Shown one piece after another: positions 1-6,940 of a stretch of DNA of 32,251 nt (positions within the stretch are counted from its first letter, which is position 1; every line of letters begins with the position of its first letter). This DNA comes from an uncultured Candidatus Saccharibacteria bacterium (lineage in GTDB: Bacteria; Patescibacteriota; Saccharimonadia; Saccharimonadales; UBA4665): positions 1 to 32,251 of the forward strand of contig CAIMCP010000097.1 in the NCBI GenBank assembly GCA_903839515.1, given 5' to 3'. The position numbers were made by a program, and so were the translations under genes. The notes below the pieces were generated by a model, which searched no databases, was not told where the DNA came from, and worked only from the letters and a program-made list of their open reading frames with translations.

Positions 1-8
1 AAAAAAAA

Positions 9-144
9 CCACATATTACTGTGGTCATAATACTTATGCTTGGTGCAGCAGGCTGAAAAAAGTTTATACCTTAATAGAGATGAGGTACTAAGATGGATGG
101 CTCTATTGGAAGAGCCATATCGTGAGTATTTACTTAATATTTAA
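9..144 (+). repeat. Repeat copy R1: diverged plus-strand gene 3' fragment, partly degraded
   Basis: CACATATTACTGTGGTCATAATACTTATGCTTGGTGCA matches R2 (690-731) closely. It ends at 142-144 with ..YLLNI*, compared with R2 ..NLLSI*. The middle is out of frame. Confidence 0.6.
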
Positions 145-387
145 ATACTTATCAGCATATGAACTAAGTACACCATTTATCATTGGTTGGTACTTGGTGT
201 TGTGCTTCTTGGCATATTTCTTATAGAGTTCTAGGCTGCGTTTATCTACTGAAATTGTAATCTTTTCTTTTTCACCTTTTCTCACAAGCTCTGCAGGAGA
301 CAGCAAAAAATCACTCACTATTATTGGATTATCTAAAGACTCGTCTATATCTTCTGGAGCATCCGTGTAACTAATTGTTTTGCTCAT
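130..387 (-). CDS. BrnA-like antitoxin
   Basis: 85 aa ORF immediately downstream of a BrnT-like toxin, with a ribbon-helix-helix-like C-terminus. Confidence 0.6.
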   Translation of the reverse strand: MSKTISYTDAPEDIDESLDNPIIVSDFLLSPAELVRKGEKEKITISVDKRSLELYKKYAKKHNTKYQPMINGVLSSYADKYLNIK

Positions 388-405
388 AAATTTTTTTCCT
401 TTCCG

Positions 406-642
406 CTAGTATCCTGCACCAATGATGCGAATATGACTAGTTCTTTTAGTAAACCTAACTGTAGCAATTTCACCATTGGATGTTTTGCCAATGCAGAAAA
501 ATCTATTTTCTGATGATGAATGAACTTTATCTTTTAAGATTAGTCTATTCTTATCAAAGAATGCTTCTTGGGCTTCGTAGAACGATAGACCATGCTTCGT
601 TATATTTTCAGCATTCTTACTATCGTGCCATTCAAAGTCCAT
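406..642 (-). CDS. brnT: BrnT family toxin
   Basis: 78 aa; FEWHDSKNAENITKHGLSFYEAQEAFFD...RFTKRTSHIRIIGAGY is characteristic of the BrnT fold family. Confidence 0.8.
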   Translation of the reverse strand: MDFEWHDSKNAENITKHGLSFYEAQEAFFDKNRLILKDKVHSSSENRFFCIGKTSNGEIATVRFTKRTSHIRIIGAGY

Positions 643-689
643 ACATACTATGATATGGGTTGCAAATTAATATTTAAGAATAAAAAGAT

Positions 690-834
690 CACATATTACC
701 GTGGTCATAATGCTTATGCTTGGTGCAAGATAGCTGACGCATTTCAAACAGCCTCGTTAAAGAGTATTGACGACTACAAACTCAAACACCTTGCTGAAGT
801 ATTCAACCTGTCGGGTAATTTACTCAGTATTTAA
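690..834 (+). repeat. Repeat copy R2: gene 3' fragment encoding TYYRGHNAYAWCKIADAFQTASLKSIDDYKLKHLAEVFNLSGNLLSI*
   Basis: Homologous to R3 and R4. Differences from R3 are concentrated at codon third positions. Confidence 0.75.
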
Positions 835-844
835 CTCGACGTTT

Positions 845-1153
845 TTATGATGCAACTGGCTGAGCAGCAGTGATGTCAGCCTTTAACGTAACGTCGTCAT
901 TGCCCATAGCGGTCCCGAGAGTACCCAGTTCAGTTGTTTGGTCCTTATAAGTTTGCTGGTCTTTCGCTAAGCTCGCATTGTCGGTGTCGAGTTTTGTCTT
1001 GTTCGCAGCGACATAACCACTTGGGAAATCAGCCTCTTCTTGCGAAATGCTGGTATCAGATGTGATTAGTGACTGGTCGCTGGTTATTTGGAATTGCATA
1101 TCAATATGGCCAAAGCCCTTAGAGTCTTTGCTAAGTTTTTTAAGTATATTCAT
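845..1153 (-). pseudogene. Truncated pilin-like ORF (leader peptide retained, TM helix missing)
   Basis: N-terminus MNILKKLSKDSKGFGHIDM is nearly identical to the adjacent pilin ORF, but it is followed directly by a hydrophilic segment with no hydrophobic helix. Confidence 0.55.
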
Positions 1154-1177
1154 TTTGTTGACCTTGTTTAATAATTA

Positions 1178-1756
1178 TTAGCATCTTGAAAGATTGGTAC
1201 GAGAACCTGCATTTGTTATTTTACCGTTATTGTCTATTCCAGGTATAAACGTCGGATTTCCAAAATGCGGATCAGTATTTATCGGGAACCAAAATCCAAG
1301 ATTACTATTGTAGTAAGTGATCGCCACTTCATCATCGTGTGCAGGAACCATATTAATTACGGGGAAAAAGCCCCATGGCTGGCTATTAATATGCAGATCA
1401 GCCCATTGAGACTGTTTATTACCTAGATTTTGGGAATAGTCGACTACACCTAGGTAACCATCAATGTTGGTTCCACTATTATTAATTACGCCTACCCTAA
1501 CTTGATTAATGGTTGTGCCAAAAGCCTGAATTGGCGTAAAGCAGGCTTCTAGAGTGAACCTTGAATTACCCCCCACATACCACTCTAACTGGCTCCACCC
1601 ACCAGCATGAGCAGTACTGTGCTTGCCCGATTTGCTATGATTCTGGTATACAAAGAACCCTACACCAGCTATTGCTGCTACAACTAGTACTATTACGATC
1701 ATTTCTATATGGCCAAAGCCACTGCTGTCTTTACTAAGTTTCTTTAGTATATTCAT
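1178..1756 (-). CDS. Type IV pilin-like protein
   Basis: Prepilin-type start KDSSG|FGHIEMIVIVLVVAAIAGVGFFVYQ with Glu at +5 and a hydrophobic helix; AGGAAG SD upstream. Confidence 0.7.
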   Translation of the reverse strand: MNILKKLSKDSSGFGHIEMIVIVLVVAAIAGVGFFVYQNHSKSGKHSTAHAGGWSQLEWYVGGNSRFTLEACFTPIQAFGTTINQVRVGVINNSGTNIDGYLGVVDYSQNLGNKQSQWADLHINSQPWGFFPVINMVPAHDDEVAITYYNSNLGFWFPINTDPHFGNPTFIPGIDNNGKITNAGSRTNLSRC

Positions 1757-1919
1757 TTTATTTATTCTTCCTTTTTGTTTTTTATATATCTTGATTTTAA
1801 TTCAAGATGTTTTTATATATAAGTTAAAGATAACATAAGCGTTATATAAATAGCAAGTAGCTATGCACAGGGTATAGATAGGAGTGTAAACAGGCTCATT
1901 TGGTTGTCTTAAAATTAAC

Positions 1920-2062
1920 AGTGGTCAAAGTGGTTATGGTGCACGATAGTTGACGCATTACAAACGGCTGCAATAGGTGCTACTAACGATTATAAACTAA
2001 AACATCTTGCCGAGGTGTTCAACTTATCAAGCAACTTAATCTCCCAAGACAACCAGTTTTAG
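1920..2062 (+). repeat. Repeat copy R3: gene 3' fragment encoding WCTIVDALQTAAIGATNDYKLKHLAEVFNLSSNLISQDNQF*
   Basis: Homologous to R2 and R4 at protein and DNA level; a ~4 nt deletion just upstream of TGGTGC breaks the frame. Confidence 0.75.
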
Positions 2063-2100
2063 CAATAGCAGGGAATTTGCAGGGAAAATATCAATATAAT

Positions 2101-2373
2101 TTAACCTACTTGCTTTAGTCGTTCGTAATTATAACCATTTTTATCACGTGCCATATAGTGCCTATCAATAAGTTCTCGTCTTAACAGCGGCCAATCAGTA
2201 AATGTATGCCACTGCTTAAGTATTTCGTTAACCTCTTTTTCAGTATAAAACCTGTCGTACTCAAACTTAGTAGCCAAATAACTAAGAACGATTACTTTGT
2301 AACTATGCTTTGACGGCCATACCGTAACTTTGCCCTCGTCGTCCAAAAACCTTTTAAGTATTTCCTGTGTCAT
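2101..2373 (-). CDS. DUF2087 domain-containing protein
   Basis: FLDDEGKVTVWPSKHSYKVIVLSYLATKFEYDRFYTEKEVNEILKQWHTFTDWPLLRRELID fits the DUF2087 pattern; 4-nt overlap with the MFS gene. Confidence 0.8.
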   Translation of the reverse strand: MTQEILKRFLDDEGKVTVWPSKHSYKVIVLSYLATKFEYDRFYTEKEVNEILKQWHTFTDWPLLRRELIDRHYMARDKNGYNYERLKQVG

Positions 2374-3557
2374 AGATTTGTTGCTGCCTTAGCTAAAGCT
2401 GGTTTATTCGCCTTGGGTATACTTCTGCTTGCCCAAAACCAATATAACAGCGTAAATACAGCGATAACTGCTACAAACCGTAATGCCCACAATGCGTCGT
2501 ACTGCGTAAATAGCCAGCCGAGCACAAAGCTAGCTGGAATTGCTATTGCCCTGCCTAACGCTGATAAAACTGAAAGTACTGAAGCTCGTACCGATGACGG
2601 TGTATTTTCTTGTACACGAGTTTCTATTTGGTTTAATAACGCAGCAGAGGCTACTGCTTGTAACATAAATAAAACAAGGCTAAACCAATTATCGATAAAT
2701 GACATAAATACCAACGGCAATGTAGTCAGTAGAACTAGCGTGTTAAGCCTTGTTCTGAACCTGTGTGCTATTAAGCTACCAAGTGACCAAGTAAAGGCAT
2801 AAGCAGCCCATAGTAATCCGATTAACTGCGGTTCGGTTACATACCTAAGCATATATAGTTGCCCAAACTCACCCTTGAATAGTTCCACCACAGCTAAAGC
2901 ACTCATAACAATGGCAAGGCTTCGTAACAACTTTGTATTTACCAGCGTTTTAATGGTTTGACCAAGCTGCTTAATAACACGCTCTTTCTTTTCGTCTTTA
3001 TGAAACGCTGGCTCTTTAAGACTTAGTATAAGTAATGCATTTAGTACGCAAGAAATAACTGTTACAAAAAAGGTAGTTGAATAAGAAAAGTGATTGGCAA
3101 TAAAACCGCTAGCAACATTTGCTACACCTGCACCTGCTAGGAATAACGCATATGCACGTCCTATAACTTTGCTATATTGGTCTGCTCTACCCTCATCGTG
3201 CAAGCTGTCATACGTAATTGCTTGGTACGTGCCACTTGTAGAAACTACGTACACACCGTAAAACAAGTAGCCAACAATATACATTTCTAGGCCGTTGCTT
3301 AAACCAAGTATTACAGAGCAAATAGCCAAGGAAATAGCCGACACAAAAAGCATACCTTTTCGGCTCCACTTATCTGCAAGAATACCTGACGGTATATCGA
3401 ATATTAAGTTAAAAGCTAAGAATATAGCTGTGGCAGTACCTACACCTACTGCGTTTATGCCAATACTAGTCATAAACAATTTTTCAATACCGTACCAAAA
3501 CACTAATCCTGTTAGGAAGTTACTTAGGTATAGTTTTTGTATTTGAGTTAGTCGCAT
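2370..3557 (-). CDS. MFS transporter
   Basis: 395 aa with about 12 hydrophobic helices; DIPSGILADKWSRKGML resembles the MFS loop 2-3 motif. Confidence 0.85.
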   Translation of the reverse strand: MRLTQIQKLYLSNFLTGLVFWYGIEKLFMTSIGINAVGVGTATAIFLAFNLIFDIPSGILADKWSRKGMLFVSAISLAICSVILGLSNGLEMYIVGYLFYGVYVVSTSGTYQAITYDSLHDEGRADQYSKVIGRAYALFLAGAGVANVASGFIANHFSYSTTFFVTVISCVLNALLILSLKEPAFHKDEKKERVIKQLGQTIKTLVNTKLLRSLAIVMSALAVVELFKGEFGQLYMLRYVTEPQLIGLLWAAYAFTWSLGSLIAHRFRTRLNTLVLLTTLPLVFMSFIDNWFSLVLFMLQAVASAALLNQIETRVQENTPSSVRASVLSVLSALGRAIAIPASFVLGWLFTQYDALWALRFVAVIAVFTLLYWFWASRSIPKANKPALAKAATNL

Positions 3558-3578
3558 AAGTTTATCTTTGGTTGATTA

Positions 3579-4124
3579 TTATAAGTTTGTTTCCTCGGAT
3601 AGCTTAACTCGTACTTTTTCAGACATAGTATTAGTACTGACATAACCAAGCACATCAACATCAGGGTCGTATAGTTCAACCATATCTAAGTCGTTACGAG
3701 GAAATACCCTTGCACCTTTTATCTGTTTACCTCTAAGTAACGACTGCTTCAGCTCATCGTACTGCTCTTGCTCTAGGTAAAAATCAACATCGCCGACGTG
3801 GTGCCTGTAAGGGTCTGGCCTGCGAATATATAAGTGGGTGTACTCGGTCTGCGGAACACCGTCTTTAGCTGGTATTACAATAGGTTCATATAATGCAAAG
3901 TACTTTAGTTCTGGATTATCTGACGGTTCAGTCATTTCTTTGCGAATTGCAACTAGCCGCTCGTACTCGTCGTCATAATGGCAAAAAACGCCCATATTTC
4001 CTGCGTTAGGTAAATACTCACCAAACGACTGCTTGCATAGCTCGTAACAGGCAAAATGTATGTGCTGTACTGCTTCTAGCAGTTGTTCTTTGTTTTCTAT
4101 TGGACTAAATCTGTATAGCTTCAT
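3579..4124 (-). CDS. Hypothetical protein
   Basis: 181 aa ORF, 4-nt overlap with the upstream APH gene. Confidence 0.6.
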   Translation of the reverse strand: MKLYRFSPIENKEQLLEAVQHIHFACYELCKQSFGEYLPNAGNMGVFCHYDDEYERLVAIRKEMTEPSDNPELKYFALYEPIVIPAKDGVPQTEYTHLYIRRPDPYRHHVGDVDFYLEQEQYDELKQSLLRGKQIKGARVFPRNDLDMVELYDPDVDVLGYVSTNTMSEKVRVKLSEETNL

Positions 4125-5233
4125 ATTTTAAAATACTCCATTGACTGTGCAAGGTGTGTTTTTCCTGTTTCAATTTTGTCTTTCATAAAATCACTTGGCT
4201 CCCAAGAGTAACGACGTATTCGCAAGGTCATTTTAGAAAGTACGTAACGTAGTCGTAAAAGCTCAAACTTATCGTCAAAATCTGCTGGCTTTTCGGCAAC
4301 TTGCCAGTAACCATCAAGGAAACCCTGTAAACGCTCTGGTTCAAAAAAGGTACTCCAACAAGCTATATCCGATACTGCGTCGCCAGCTACACACTCGTCC
4401 CAGTCCAGAATACCTGTGACGTCATTACCGTCGGTCAATAAGTTCCAGTCAGCAAAATCGTTATGTACAAGCACTGCTTGTTGAATTGTGAGTAAAGGGT
4501 TGTCGTCAAATAGCTTAGTAATTGCCGCTATTTGCTCTGTGGTCAGTATATTTTCTTTATTTAAAACATCTAAATTAAATGGCAGTCCAGCACGTACGGC
4601 TTGACCAAATGTATTATGTAACCCAACCAACTCGCCACTCTTTGCTCGTTCGTTATCAAATGGTCCAAAGCCGTCAACTTTCACTTGATGCAATCGTGCC
4701 ATCATTTTGCCTATTTGCGTCAATAGGACAGCCTCATCGTCGGGATGAGCTTCAAGCCACTTCTTAATGGCTGTGCCTGATAGTTTTTCAAGAACGTGGA
4801 ATGCAAAGTCATTACCACCCTCGTAATCGTGAACCGCAAGCGTATCAAAGCTGGGTAAACCTGCCTCTTTTGCTTTGTGTGCGGCAGTAGCTTCAGCGTG
4901 AAAATAACCATTCCGAACGCCTTTAGGATGGCAACGTACGATAACTTCTTTGCCTGATGTGAGCAGACCAGTACGCACCGAGTTTACATTGCCAAGGTTA
5001 GTCTGTGCATCCAAGTCTAGCGGCTCAATGCTAGTTAACTTGTCCTCCCCAAGTGCAGTATTTACAGTTTCAACCAAATCTCCATCAGTAAAGTACCTAT
5101 GCCTATCTGCCCAAATATGACCTGCGTCAGCTGGTTCTACTGCACGGTCAGTCTGCCAGTAGAAAACGTCTGACCTGTCGGCTATACCTGCGTTGATTTT
5201 TTCCATATCTAGGTTTGCCATTTGCTCGCTCAC
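4121..5233 (-). CDS. Aminoglycoside phosphotransferase (APH)-family protein
   Basis: Kinase-like catalytic block VLVHNDFADWNLLTDGNDVTGILDWDECVAGDAVSDIA. Confidence 0.85.
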   Translation of the reverse strand: MSEQMANLDMEKINAGIADRSDVFYWQTDRAVEPADAGHIWADRHRYFTDGDLVETVNTALGEDKLTSIEPLDLDAQTNLGNVNSVRTGLLTSGKEVIVRCHPKGVRNGYFHAEATAAHKAKEAGLPSFDTLAVHDYEGGNDFAFHVLEKLSGTAIKKWLEAHPDDEAVLLTQIGKMMARLHQVKVDGFGPFDNERAKSGELVGLHNTFGQAVRAGLPFNLDVLNKENILTTEQIAAITKLFDDNPLLTIQQAVLVHNDFADWNLLTDGNDVTGILDWDECVAGDAVSDIACWSTFFEPERLQGFLDGYWQVAEKPADFDDKFELLRLRYVLSKMTLRIRRYSWEPSDFMKDKIETGKTHLAQSMEYFKI

Positions 5234-5625
5234 ACCTTATCCTTGTACTTTTTTATAGCGTCCAACAGGTCATTGAGGTTTGAAAACGTATCGTGACCAA
5301 CGAGTACTGGCTCAAGCTGGTCTTGTACCATTGCCAATTCTTGCTCGGTTAGACCAACTAAGAACTTATGTTCATCTGGTCTGTCATCACCTCTGAAGAC
5401 CAGAACGTATCCTATAACGCCGTTAGGATTTGAGCCTACAAAAAGGTCAAGTTCGTGGTCATCTTCACCTGTATAGCCCTCAATATGACCGTAGTCAACT
5501 GGGTACGTCACGCCTTTCAATGGGTAAGTGCTGTTGGCTGGCAACTCAAAGTCGTAATACTCGTTTGCAGGTACGTCAATTACGAAGCTATTCAGAGGGT
5601 CTGGTAACTGCTCGGTTATGTTCAT
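5230..5625 (-). CDS. Inorganic pyrophosphatase-like protein
   Basis: YPLKGVTYPVDYGHIEGYTGEDDHELDLFVG matches the family I PPase core; short and with altered metal-ligand positions. Confidence 0.75.
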   Translation of the reverse strand: MNITEQLPDPLNSFVIDVPANEYYDFELPANSTYPLKGVTYPVDYGHIEGYTGEDDHELDLFVGSNPNGVIGYVLVFRGDDRPDEHKFLVGLTEQELAMVQDQLEPVLVGHDTFSNLNDLLDAIKKYKDKV

Positions 5626-5915
5626 AATTGCTCCTTTGCGGCTTTCAGAAATGCTAAGTCTCGTTTCTGTATAAACTGACCCTCTAGGTTGTTGGGCTTA
5701 TCCTGCGACAACAAATCAATAGCGTCATCTATGCTTTTGGCTTTTACTTCAAACATACCCTCTGCAAGTTCGCCTGGTTTCATAGTTGCTGCAGGGAATC
5801 CCCAATGTCCTCCAAGGTCTGGATCATCTTCGGGTCGCTTAACTACTAAAAATTCTTCTGGATTAGATTTATTTTTAAGAACTACTGCTACAACGTATTT
5901 AGTTTGTTTACTCAT
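5622..5915 (-). CDS. Nudix-like protein lacking the Nudix box
   Basis: VVKRPEDDPDLGGHWGFPAATMKPGE resembles the Nudix N-terminal half, but no REUxEExGU follows. Confidence 0.6.
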   Translation of the reverse strand: MSKQTKYVVAVVLKNKSNPEEFLVVKRPEDDPDLGGHWGFPAATMKPGELAEGMFEVKAKSIDDAIDLLSQDKPNNLEGQFIQKRDLAFLKAAKEQL

Positions 5916-6028
5916 TACATAATAATAACAAATTAAATAACCAAATGGGATTTACACCAACAATATAGAGATATTTAGAAATAAAAATGACACGCATATT
6001 TACGTGCCTTATCTGTTAGTCAAAATTG

Positions 6029-6137
6029 GTGCAAGATAAGTGACGCATTACAAACATCAGCTATTGAAAAATACAATGACCAAAAGTTGAAAAACCTAGT
6101 CAATCTATTTAAATTATCAGACAAGTTGTTAGCGTAG
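6029..6137 (+). repeat. Repeat copy R4: gene 3' fragment encoding WCKISDALQTSAIEKYNDQKLKNLVNLFKLSDKLLA*
   Basis: Homologous to R2 and R3; begins at the shared TTGGTGCAAGATA block. Confidence 0.75.
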
Positions 6138-6692
6138 TCTTCCCCAGATTGCCTTTAATGGCTTTTGTGTCTGTTGTGATAGCACATAACCTGTTGCTCG
6201 CAAATGTCCTTCAAGTATCTCGCCCTGATTATCATTATGATTAGACACTACAATGATTGGATCGAAGTCTAAGCCACTTTCAAAATCGTTAGCAACCAAA
6301 TGAAACCTATCATTTGGAACCTCAAACACAACTTTACCATTTACTATATTCTCAGCAGCACGACCAACTTTACGACTATTGTCGCTAAGCTCATTCCAGT
6401 AACTGTAGTCGATGTAATTTAAGTTCGAAACATCATATTTATCTAGCTCGACTAGTTCCCAGTCGTAATCGCCAAAGTCCCTATCAAGCCAAGTTCGGTA
6501 GCTTTTTAGTATTTGCCACCTCATTGCATTTTCTTGTTTATTATTGAGATCAGGTTGAGTGACAATTTCTTCATCATAACCTAATTTTTTGATTGCTATA
6601 TGCAATTCATTGCTAAACCTAGCAGAGTCCATCTCTGCCTTCAACCATTCTAGGATTGCTTGTTCTTTGCTGCTGTCGCTAATGAGTTTCAT
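6129..6692 (-). CDS. Hypothetical protein (start re-assigned to MKLISDSS...)
   Basis: Long ORF. The upstream part of the called ORF (6693-6755) overlaps a terminator hairpin and a TTTGC-TATGAT promoter. The C-terminal part LEGHLRATGYVLS is vaguely ParB-like. Confidence 0.6.
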   Translation of the reverse strand: MKLISDSSKEQAILEWLKAEMDSARFSNELHIAIKKLGYDEEIVTQPDLNNKQENAMRWQILKSYRTWLDRDFGDYDWELVELDKYDVSNLNYIDYSYWNELSDNSRKVGRAAENIVNGKVVFEVPNDRFHLVANDFESGLDFDPIIVVSNHNDNQGEILEGHLRATGYVLSQQTQKPLKAIWGRLR

Positions 6693-6706
6693 TTTATAAT
6701 CATAGC

Positions 6707-6733
6707 AAAAAGAGACCATCGCTGGTCTCTTTT
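6707..6733 (-). terminator. Terminator for the minus-strand tRNA-Gly transcript
   Basis: Minus strand AAAAGAGACC-agcgat-GGTCTCTTTTT hairpin with T-tract. Confidence 0.75.
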
Positions 6734-6775
6734 GTTTGAAACTATACTGTTTCAAAATCGTTTGGGTCTAATTGG

Positions 6776-6849
6776 TGCGGGTGACGGGACTCTAACCCGT
6801 GGCCTCATCCTTGGCAAGGATGCGCTCTAAACAACTGAGCTACACCCGC
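6776..6849 (-). tRNA. tRNA-Gly(GCC)
   Basis: Reverse complement GCGGGTGTAGCTCAGTTGTTTAGAGCGCATCCTTGCCAAGGATG..GGGTTAGAGTCCC..ACCCGCA + CCA; anticodon loop TTGCCAA. Confidence 0.93.
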
Positions 6850-6940
6850 ATAACAGGGTATTATTATAACTATATTTATGCGATTATACAATATATCCTT
6901 GAGAAGAAAGGCTTTTTCTTATAGAATATACGAAGTCATT

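Follow-up and report, generated by a model that had tools for sequence, protein, structure and literature searches.

In this study, we examined the array of accessory genes at the left end of a 32,251-nt stretch of DNA from an uncultured Candidatus Saccharibacteria bacterium (the window, contig C97 of an assembly that totals 0.96 Mb and comprises 130 contigs), in which four short plus-strand repeats, R1 to R4, alternate with minus-strand cargo genes up to a tRNA-Gly(GCC) gene. Comparison with related genomes makes it very probable that the repeats are the severed 3' ends of self-splitting large serine recombinase (LSR) genes, of a family B for R1 and of a family A for R2 to R4. The original prediction for this region had proposed that elements bringing their own 3' ends integrated repeatedly and site-specifically at a hotspot of the Candidate Phyla Radiation (CPR), and that part of it is supported. 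It had also proposed that the split gene belonged to the host, with its parent to the left of position 1; instead, the gene that is split appears to be the integrase of each element, and the target to be tRNA-Gly(GCC), to the right, or an earlier tail.

Three of the repeats, R2 (720–834), R3 (1936–2062) and R4 (6026–6137), are homologous, R3 and R4 having 72 and 61% identity, respectively, to R2 over 105 nt, and their related C-terminal open frames are as first quoted. The inclusion of R1 in a single plus-strand family with them does not stand, its homology to R2 being confined to the 45 bp up to and including a 7-bp core (2–46 versus 682–726); right of that core, TTGGTGC, R1 is a different 3' end, LVQQAEKSLYLNRDEVLRWMALLEEPYREYLLNI and a stop. 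We term these 3' gene ends type A (R2, R3 and R4) and type B (R1) tails; they comprise 34–41 codons and have a common start at the core, which is TTGGTGC, or ATGGTGC at R3. Copies from relatives have the consensus WCxIVDAFQTSAI....DYKLKxLAxxFxLSxxLL (type A) or LVQQVGKSLHLIRDEIxRWRKILExPYQEYLLS (type B), each followed by a stop; the frames of both types are short, and none was part of a long host gene. The homology of all copies begins abruptly at TTGGTGC, the sequence to the left being unrelated or belonging to one of the half-site classes described below. In a sample of 198 genomes of the same order as the window genome, type A tails were found in 47 and type B tails in 54, and the recurrence of the R2–R4 type is therefore not due to chance. 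The claim that the repeats diverged as coding sequence was also borne out, as 37% of the differing codon pairs in tail codons 13–36 are synonymous, versus 9–12% in the alternative frames. No third-position excess is present in tail codons 1–6, which are therefore constrained as DNA.

Frames of 498–564 aa on the strand of the tails stop exactly at a tail or within tRNA-Gly, and these encode LSRs. Among five such recombinases tested, the resolvase N-terminal catalytic domain PF00239 was above its cut-off in all five, the Recombinase domain PF07508 in four and the zinc ribbon PF13408 in one (just below in two), and a conserved RVS motif is present, so that their domains are those of a large serine recombinase. 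Family A ends in KKKSLSAHNSNI followed directly by WCG, these last codons being antisense tRNA. Of the 15 LSR_A genes in the genome collection, 13 run into tRNA-Gly(GCC) and terminate there with the antisense codons WC(G/E), and the other two end at a type B tail and at tRNA-Asn. Family B bodies end in the frame of type B tails. Searches of 393 genomes with body-plus-tail queries returned full-length family A bodies (~500–570 aa) whose match stops at the core, and likewise family B bodies. In-frame fusions of body and tail were found in four sequence stretches (L labels denote stretches drawn from genomes, G labels the genomes), namely L121, L196 and L122, where an A-type C-terminus runs into tail A, and L209, where a B-type C-terminus runs into tail B. 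The core is crossed in frame in L121 and L196 and altered in L122, and in the former two the target site thus lies within the integrase gene, as it does in suicidal integrases. That the tails are coding and orphaned would also suit integration into a host protein gene, at its 3' end, somewhere to the left of position 1. However, the only longer frames joined to tails in the 393 genomes are recombinase bodies and the target is tRNA-Gly, or tRNA-Trp in the genome G482, which makes a host gene a very improbable parent.

Intact elements have the order, from left to right, of tail, cargo, recombinase body and tRNA-Gly. LSR_A bodies have a tail A ~4.5–12 kb to their left (G287, G194, G166, G046, G353, G170, G167, G187 and others) and LSR_B bodies a tail B ~4–9 kb to their left (G060, G366, G055, G363, G010, G170 and G166). 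The nearest tail to the left was of the same type as the body without mismatch in ~20 clear cases, a count that takes in a few related genomes and is not a formal test. The two parts of a split gene thus flank the element, which is the second hallmark of suicidal integrases; the third, an archaeal tyrosine recombinase, is replaced here by a serine recombinase in Candidatus Saccharibacteria. G170, a single contig, contains one element directly after another (tail B, cargo, LSR_B, then tail A, cargo, LSR_A and tRNA-Gly, the tRNA end being seen in L190). G482 belongs to another order and carries a pair of ~11.8-kb elements; the core is TGGTGC in the one at tRNA-Gly, and at tRNA-Trp it is TGGCAG in tRNA and tail alike. 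Such agreement of core and target would be difficult to account for if the start of the tail were not part of attP, and the change of the core in both tRNA and tail therefore indicates that attP is inside the LSR gene and that integration splits the gene. Most of the genomes are metagenome assemblies, but misassembly is an unlikely source of the pattern because single-contig genomes and many independent assemblies show it too.

In the mechanism we propose, each recombinase would have its attP within its own frame, ~35 codons before the stop, and would be complete in a circular intermediate. The circle would integrate by LSR recombination between attP and the 3' end of tRNA-Gly or an older tail site. 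Integration would split the gene, swapping the last ~35 residues for a few antisense-tRNA codons, and the tail would stay behind as a scar at the opposite end. Besides coding for protein, the first ~18 nt of a tail would make up half of the attachment site. Repeated rounds at the core would have built the array in the window, from which the recombinase bodies would since have been lost, leaving four cassettes. Large serine recombinases join attP and attB through a 2-bp crossover, which here would lie within the shared 7-bp core with its sharp boundaries. Plausibly, the split acts as a one-way switch, with an integrase that is complete in the circle and truncated once integrated.

Several results weigh against self-splitting LSRs as the source of the repeats. 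The 5' portion is missing from each of the four fusions, and neither a full-length LSR with its tail attached nor a circular form of the element was found. Scans of IMG/VR returned none of these recombinases or tails; a viral origin was considered and rejected on the same scans. The window genome yielded no LSR_A or LSR_B body, and its single PF07508 match sits on another contig. In addition, the frames of most orphan tails are still open, although nothing would keep a simple scar open. No recombinase was found on the window contig, as had been claimed. A search for a tyrosine recombinase upstream had been suggested; the enzyme of the system is instead a large serine recombinase, and the one PF00589 protein of the window genome is on another contig, unlinked to the array, just as the related genomes have, as a rule, one core XerC/D-like gene each that is likewise unlinked.

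Records of recombinases of the same system are mostly from Candidatus Saccharibacteria. Across the phylum, relatives of LSR_A end in tRNA-Asn, -His, -Glu, -Ser or -Trp as well as in tRNA-Gly, and most of 20 such relatives overlap a called tRNA. Antisense tRNA codons form the C-terminus of LSR_A relatives in L246, L249–L255, L258, L262 and L263. L112 (2521–4161, minus strand) and L121 (11445–13136) each encode a further type of LSR that terminates within tRNA-Gly but uses a different frame. In L036, from G020, a serine recombinase of ~546 aa (~1160–2800, reverse strand) ends within tRNA-Leu(TAA), which suggests that this style of integration also occurs at another tRNA from the same cluster. 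Conserved proteins of ~425, 104 and 397 aa are encoded upstream of LSR_A in L206 (6969–10331), with homologues in L198, L199, L200 and L207. They had no Pfam match, and the predicted structures of the 397-aa and 425-aa proteins (mean pLDDT 38 and 33, respectively) gave no usable PDB match. These may be replication or transfer genes of the element.

In most relatives with enough sequence, the tail copies are found 3' of tRNA-Gly(GCC) and share a single orientation, the tRNA being encoded on the other strand. The tRNA-Gly is intact at the right end of the elements, as in insertions at a tRNA 3' end that restore the tRNA. The sequence immediately left of the core is unrelated between copies or falls into a few half-site classes, which are found before tails and before tRNA-Gly alike. 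We considered TTTGAAACTATACTGTTTCAAA as the native 3' flank of tRNA-Gly and rejected it, as genomes free of arrays do not share it; it is therefore better read as one class of element half-site. A resemblance of the repeats to degenerate tRNAs was likewise considered, and no support was found for any beyond GCACCA. Separately, an inverted, degenerate copy of the 3' half of tRNA-Gly occurs ~40–80 bp away from either the 3' end of the tRNA or a tail core, and a terminator separates the two. Such copies are present in L214, L216, L218 and L228, and also in L116, L119 and L125 beside tails or tRNA-Gly, and are possibly traces of another type of element. The features of the window, in which the tRNA-Gly 3' end, at 6772–6849, falls within the limits of 1 to 6,850 first given for the array although the tRNA itself had not been recognised, are as follows.

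2–46, plus strand: left half-site, a minus-strand terminator hairpin and CATAATACTTATGC, then core TTGGTGC (40–46); 45-bp direct repeat of 682–726.
40–144, plus strand: R1, core and type B integrase tail (LVQQAEKSLYLNRDEVLRWMALLEEPYREYLLNI, stop); type B tails pair with LSR family B.
130–642, minus strand: cargo of cassette 1, a BrnA-like antitoxin (130–387, below the Pfam cut-off) and a BrnT toxin (406–642).
682–726, plus strand: right half-site of the BrnTA cassette, with core TTGGTGC (720–726).
720–834, plus strand: R2, core and type A integrase tail (WCKIADAFQTASLKSIDDYKLKHLAEVFNLSGNLLSI, stop).
845–1756, minus strand: cargo of cassette 2, two open reading frames (ORFs; 845–1153 and 1178–1756) of no Pfam family.
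1936–2062, plus strand: R3, core ATGGTGC and type A tail.
2101–5915, minus strand: cargo of cassette 3, DUF2087, MFS transporter, 181-aa protein, APH-type kinase, InPase-like and NUDIX-like (below cut-off) genes.
6026–6137, plus strand: R4, core TTGGTGC and type A tail.
6129–6755, minus strand: cargo of cassette 4, a 208-aa ORF with no Pfam match.
6733–6771, plus strand: left half-site at the tRNA (TTTGAAACTATACTGTTTCAAAATCGTTTGGGTCTAA), of a class joined to type A and B tails in relatives (L037:9555, L039:9273, L114:9255).
6772–6778, plus strand: core TTGGTGC, antisense of the tRNA-Gly 3' end GCACCAA and right border of a 6,045-bp block.
6773–6849, minus strand: tRNA-Gly(GCC), putative chromosomal integration target.

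The minus-strand cargo converges on the repeats, as first described, its ORF stops at 130, 845, 2101 and 6129 adjoining the tail stops at 144, 834, 2062 and 6137, respectively. The 181-aa protein of cassette 3 is 81% identical to one within an intact LSR_A element of another family (L207). The two ORFs of cassette 2 encode near-identical N-termini, MNILKKLSKDSxGFGHI, and their products are possibly pilin-like; the ORF starts (1097–1159 and 1700–1762) share 63 bp at 83% identity, which is probably a duplicated leader of pilin-like proteins. Position 1 of the window is the end of the contig and lies inside the repeated half-site, and the array is therefore probably longer than seen, with its left part missing. 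A further copy of the half-site of the window, followed by a degenerate core, TTGGTTC, was observed in L211 (contig C94, 285–331, minus strand) and may represent either the missing left end of the array or another site. A type B tail near tRNA-Leu(CAG) in L192 (contig C105 of the same-genus genome G002, 4941–5077) hints at a second array site.

The BrnTA cassette (2–726) is also present in two genomes of the same genus, G001 and G002, where it is 95–96% identical and adjoins tRNA-Gly directly. Relative to both, the window has an extra 6,045 bp (727–6771), a block of three cassettes containing R2, R3 and R4 with their cargo, and the alignments to either side of it overlap by exactly 7 bp, TTGGTGC; gain and loss of the block are alike compatible with this comparison. 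Relatives were thus found to differ in load exactly at the repeats, as the original prediction had anticipated, and the tails mark cargo boundaries, rather than being unlinked to them in a fixed gene order.

As in the window, 66 of the 83 intervals between sites lack a recombinase. These intervals are compact (median 1,045 bp; 62 of the 66 at most 3 kb) and one-sided, with 104 ORFs on the minus strand versus 7 on the plus strand and cargo stops that adjoin the tail. A terminator-like hairpin on the cargo strand is present at 46 of 84 half-sites, versus 44 of 432 control windows. G020, from another genus, has a BrnTA cassette that matches that of the window from core to core although the neighbours differ on both sides, and a cassette for a PIN-domain toxin occurs in three genera (G020, G240 and G009). 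Based on these sequence features, the LSR-less units look like a working cassette system, with decay and inheritance given similar weight.

One reading that would extend the self-splitting of LSRs is that the LSR-less units, each made up of a tail, one or more minus-strand genes, a terminator and a half-site, are mobile. An LSR acting in trans would cut them out and insert them at the core, as in an integron served by a serine recombinase. Such mobility would fit the compactness, strand bias, hairpins and wide recurrence of the units, as well as the variation of the three-cassette block between congeners and the open frames of orphan tails, and we rate it a serious possibility, somewhat short of even. 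Serine integrases normally need a directionality factor for excision, and none was identified; moreover, the window genome lacks LSR_A and LSR_B, no circular cassettes were seen, and recurring cassettes are also explicable by vertical descent and loss. A more doubtful proposal, which we offer tentatively, is that self-splitting LSRs serve compact cassettes in trans with the severed tail as the recombination site. A new element inserted beside an old tail of its own type would regain a complete C-terminus, so tails could be spare parts that re-arm the integrase. The other reading of the LSR-less units, to which we give even chances, is that each cassette was once an autonomous LSR element and has decayed through deletion of the recombinase body, arrays being piled-up scars. 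Partly decayed LSR_A 3' ends at tRNA-Gly (L035, L113 and L128) and intact elements of 4–12 kb at the same sites are in keeping with such decay. However, random decay predicts neither compact units of one or two genes in one orientation with retained terminator and half-site, nor the same compact cassette in different genera.

Short cassettes arrayed in one orientation are also what a conventional integron, with IntI and attC, would present in a CPR genome, an explanation to which we attach almost no credence. R2 to R4 fold no better than shuffled sequences (z-scores 0.0 to 1.4) and R1 only weakly so (-1.7 and -2.0), which ruled out an attC or hairpin site. In addition, TTGGTGC departs from GTTRRRY, the motif in which attC sites end, the junction recombinases belong to the serine type, and there is no IntI beside the array, the single tyrosine recombinase of the genome being unlinked to it.

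Self-splitting LSRs would explain a conserved hotspot of accessory genes, including restriction enzymes, toxin-antitoxin pairs and transporters, in an episymbiotic phylum, and TTGGTGC together with a tail would be a simple sequence tag with which to search for that hotspot. The severed C-terminus would also represent a natural experiment on the control of direction by serine integrases, which is a practical question because these enzymes serve as genome-engineering tools. In the literature covered (subscription papers and preprints lay outside its scope), we found no account of a serine or bacterial self-splitting integrase, and papers on gene exchange in Patescibacteria and on integrases did not describe this system.

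The system proposed here resembles the suicidal (SSV-type) integrases in having an attachment site within the integrase gene, split parts that flank the element and tRNA targets, the SSV1 integrase likewise targeting a tRNA. Integrases of that type are known from archaeal viruses and plasmids (SSV1, pTN3 and pT26-2), where the attachment site is within the integrase gene and integration leaves two gene parts flanking the element; remnants persist and may be served in trans by an integrase (PMC8371274). A 2021 review considered self-splitting integrases to be exclusively archaeal and to belong to one tyrosine recombinase family (PMC8371274). In contrast, those in Saccharibacteria would be of the serine class and split ~35 codons before the 3' end, so that the large part keeps the catalytic domain, and their tails form arrays. 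Self-splitting in the serine class, which is unrelated to the tyrosine class, in bacteria with minimal genomes, therefore appears to be an independent invention. In mycobacteriophage BPs, attP lies in the coding 3' part of a gene and integration removes 33 C-terminal residues (PMC4557955). However, the protein altered in that integration-dependent immunity is the repressor, whereas here it would be the integrase. The array also has likenesses to integron arrays, namely compact cassettes of one or two genes in one orientation, a site beyond the gene stop and toxin-antitoxin cassettes, but differs from them in its serine recombinases, in having a half-site and integrase tail instead of a folded attC and tRNA-Gly instead of attI, and in its lack of IntI. 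Finally, repeated site-specific insertion at a tRNA 3' end is shared with tandem genomic islands at tRNA genes, although here only ~7 bp are shared and the duplicated piece would be the tail of an integrase, not a fragment of the tRNA.

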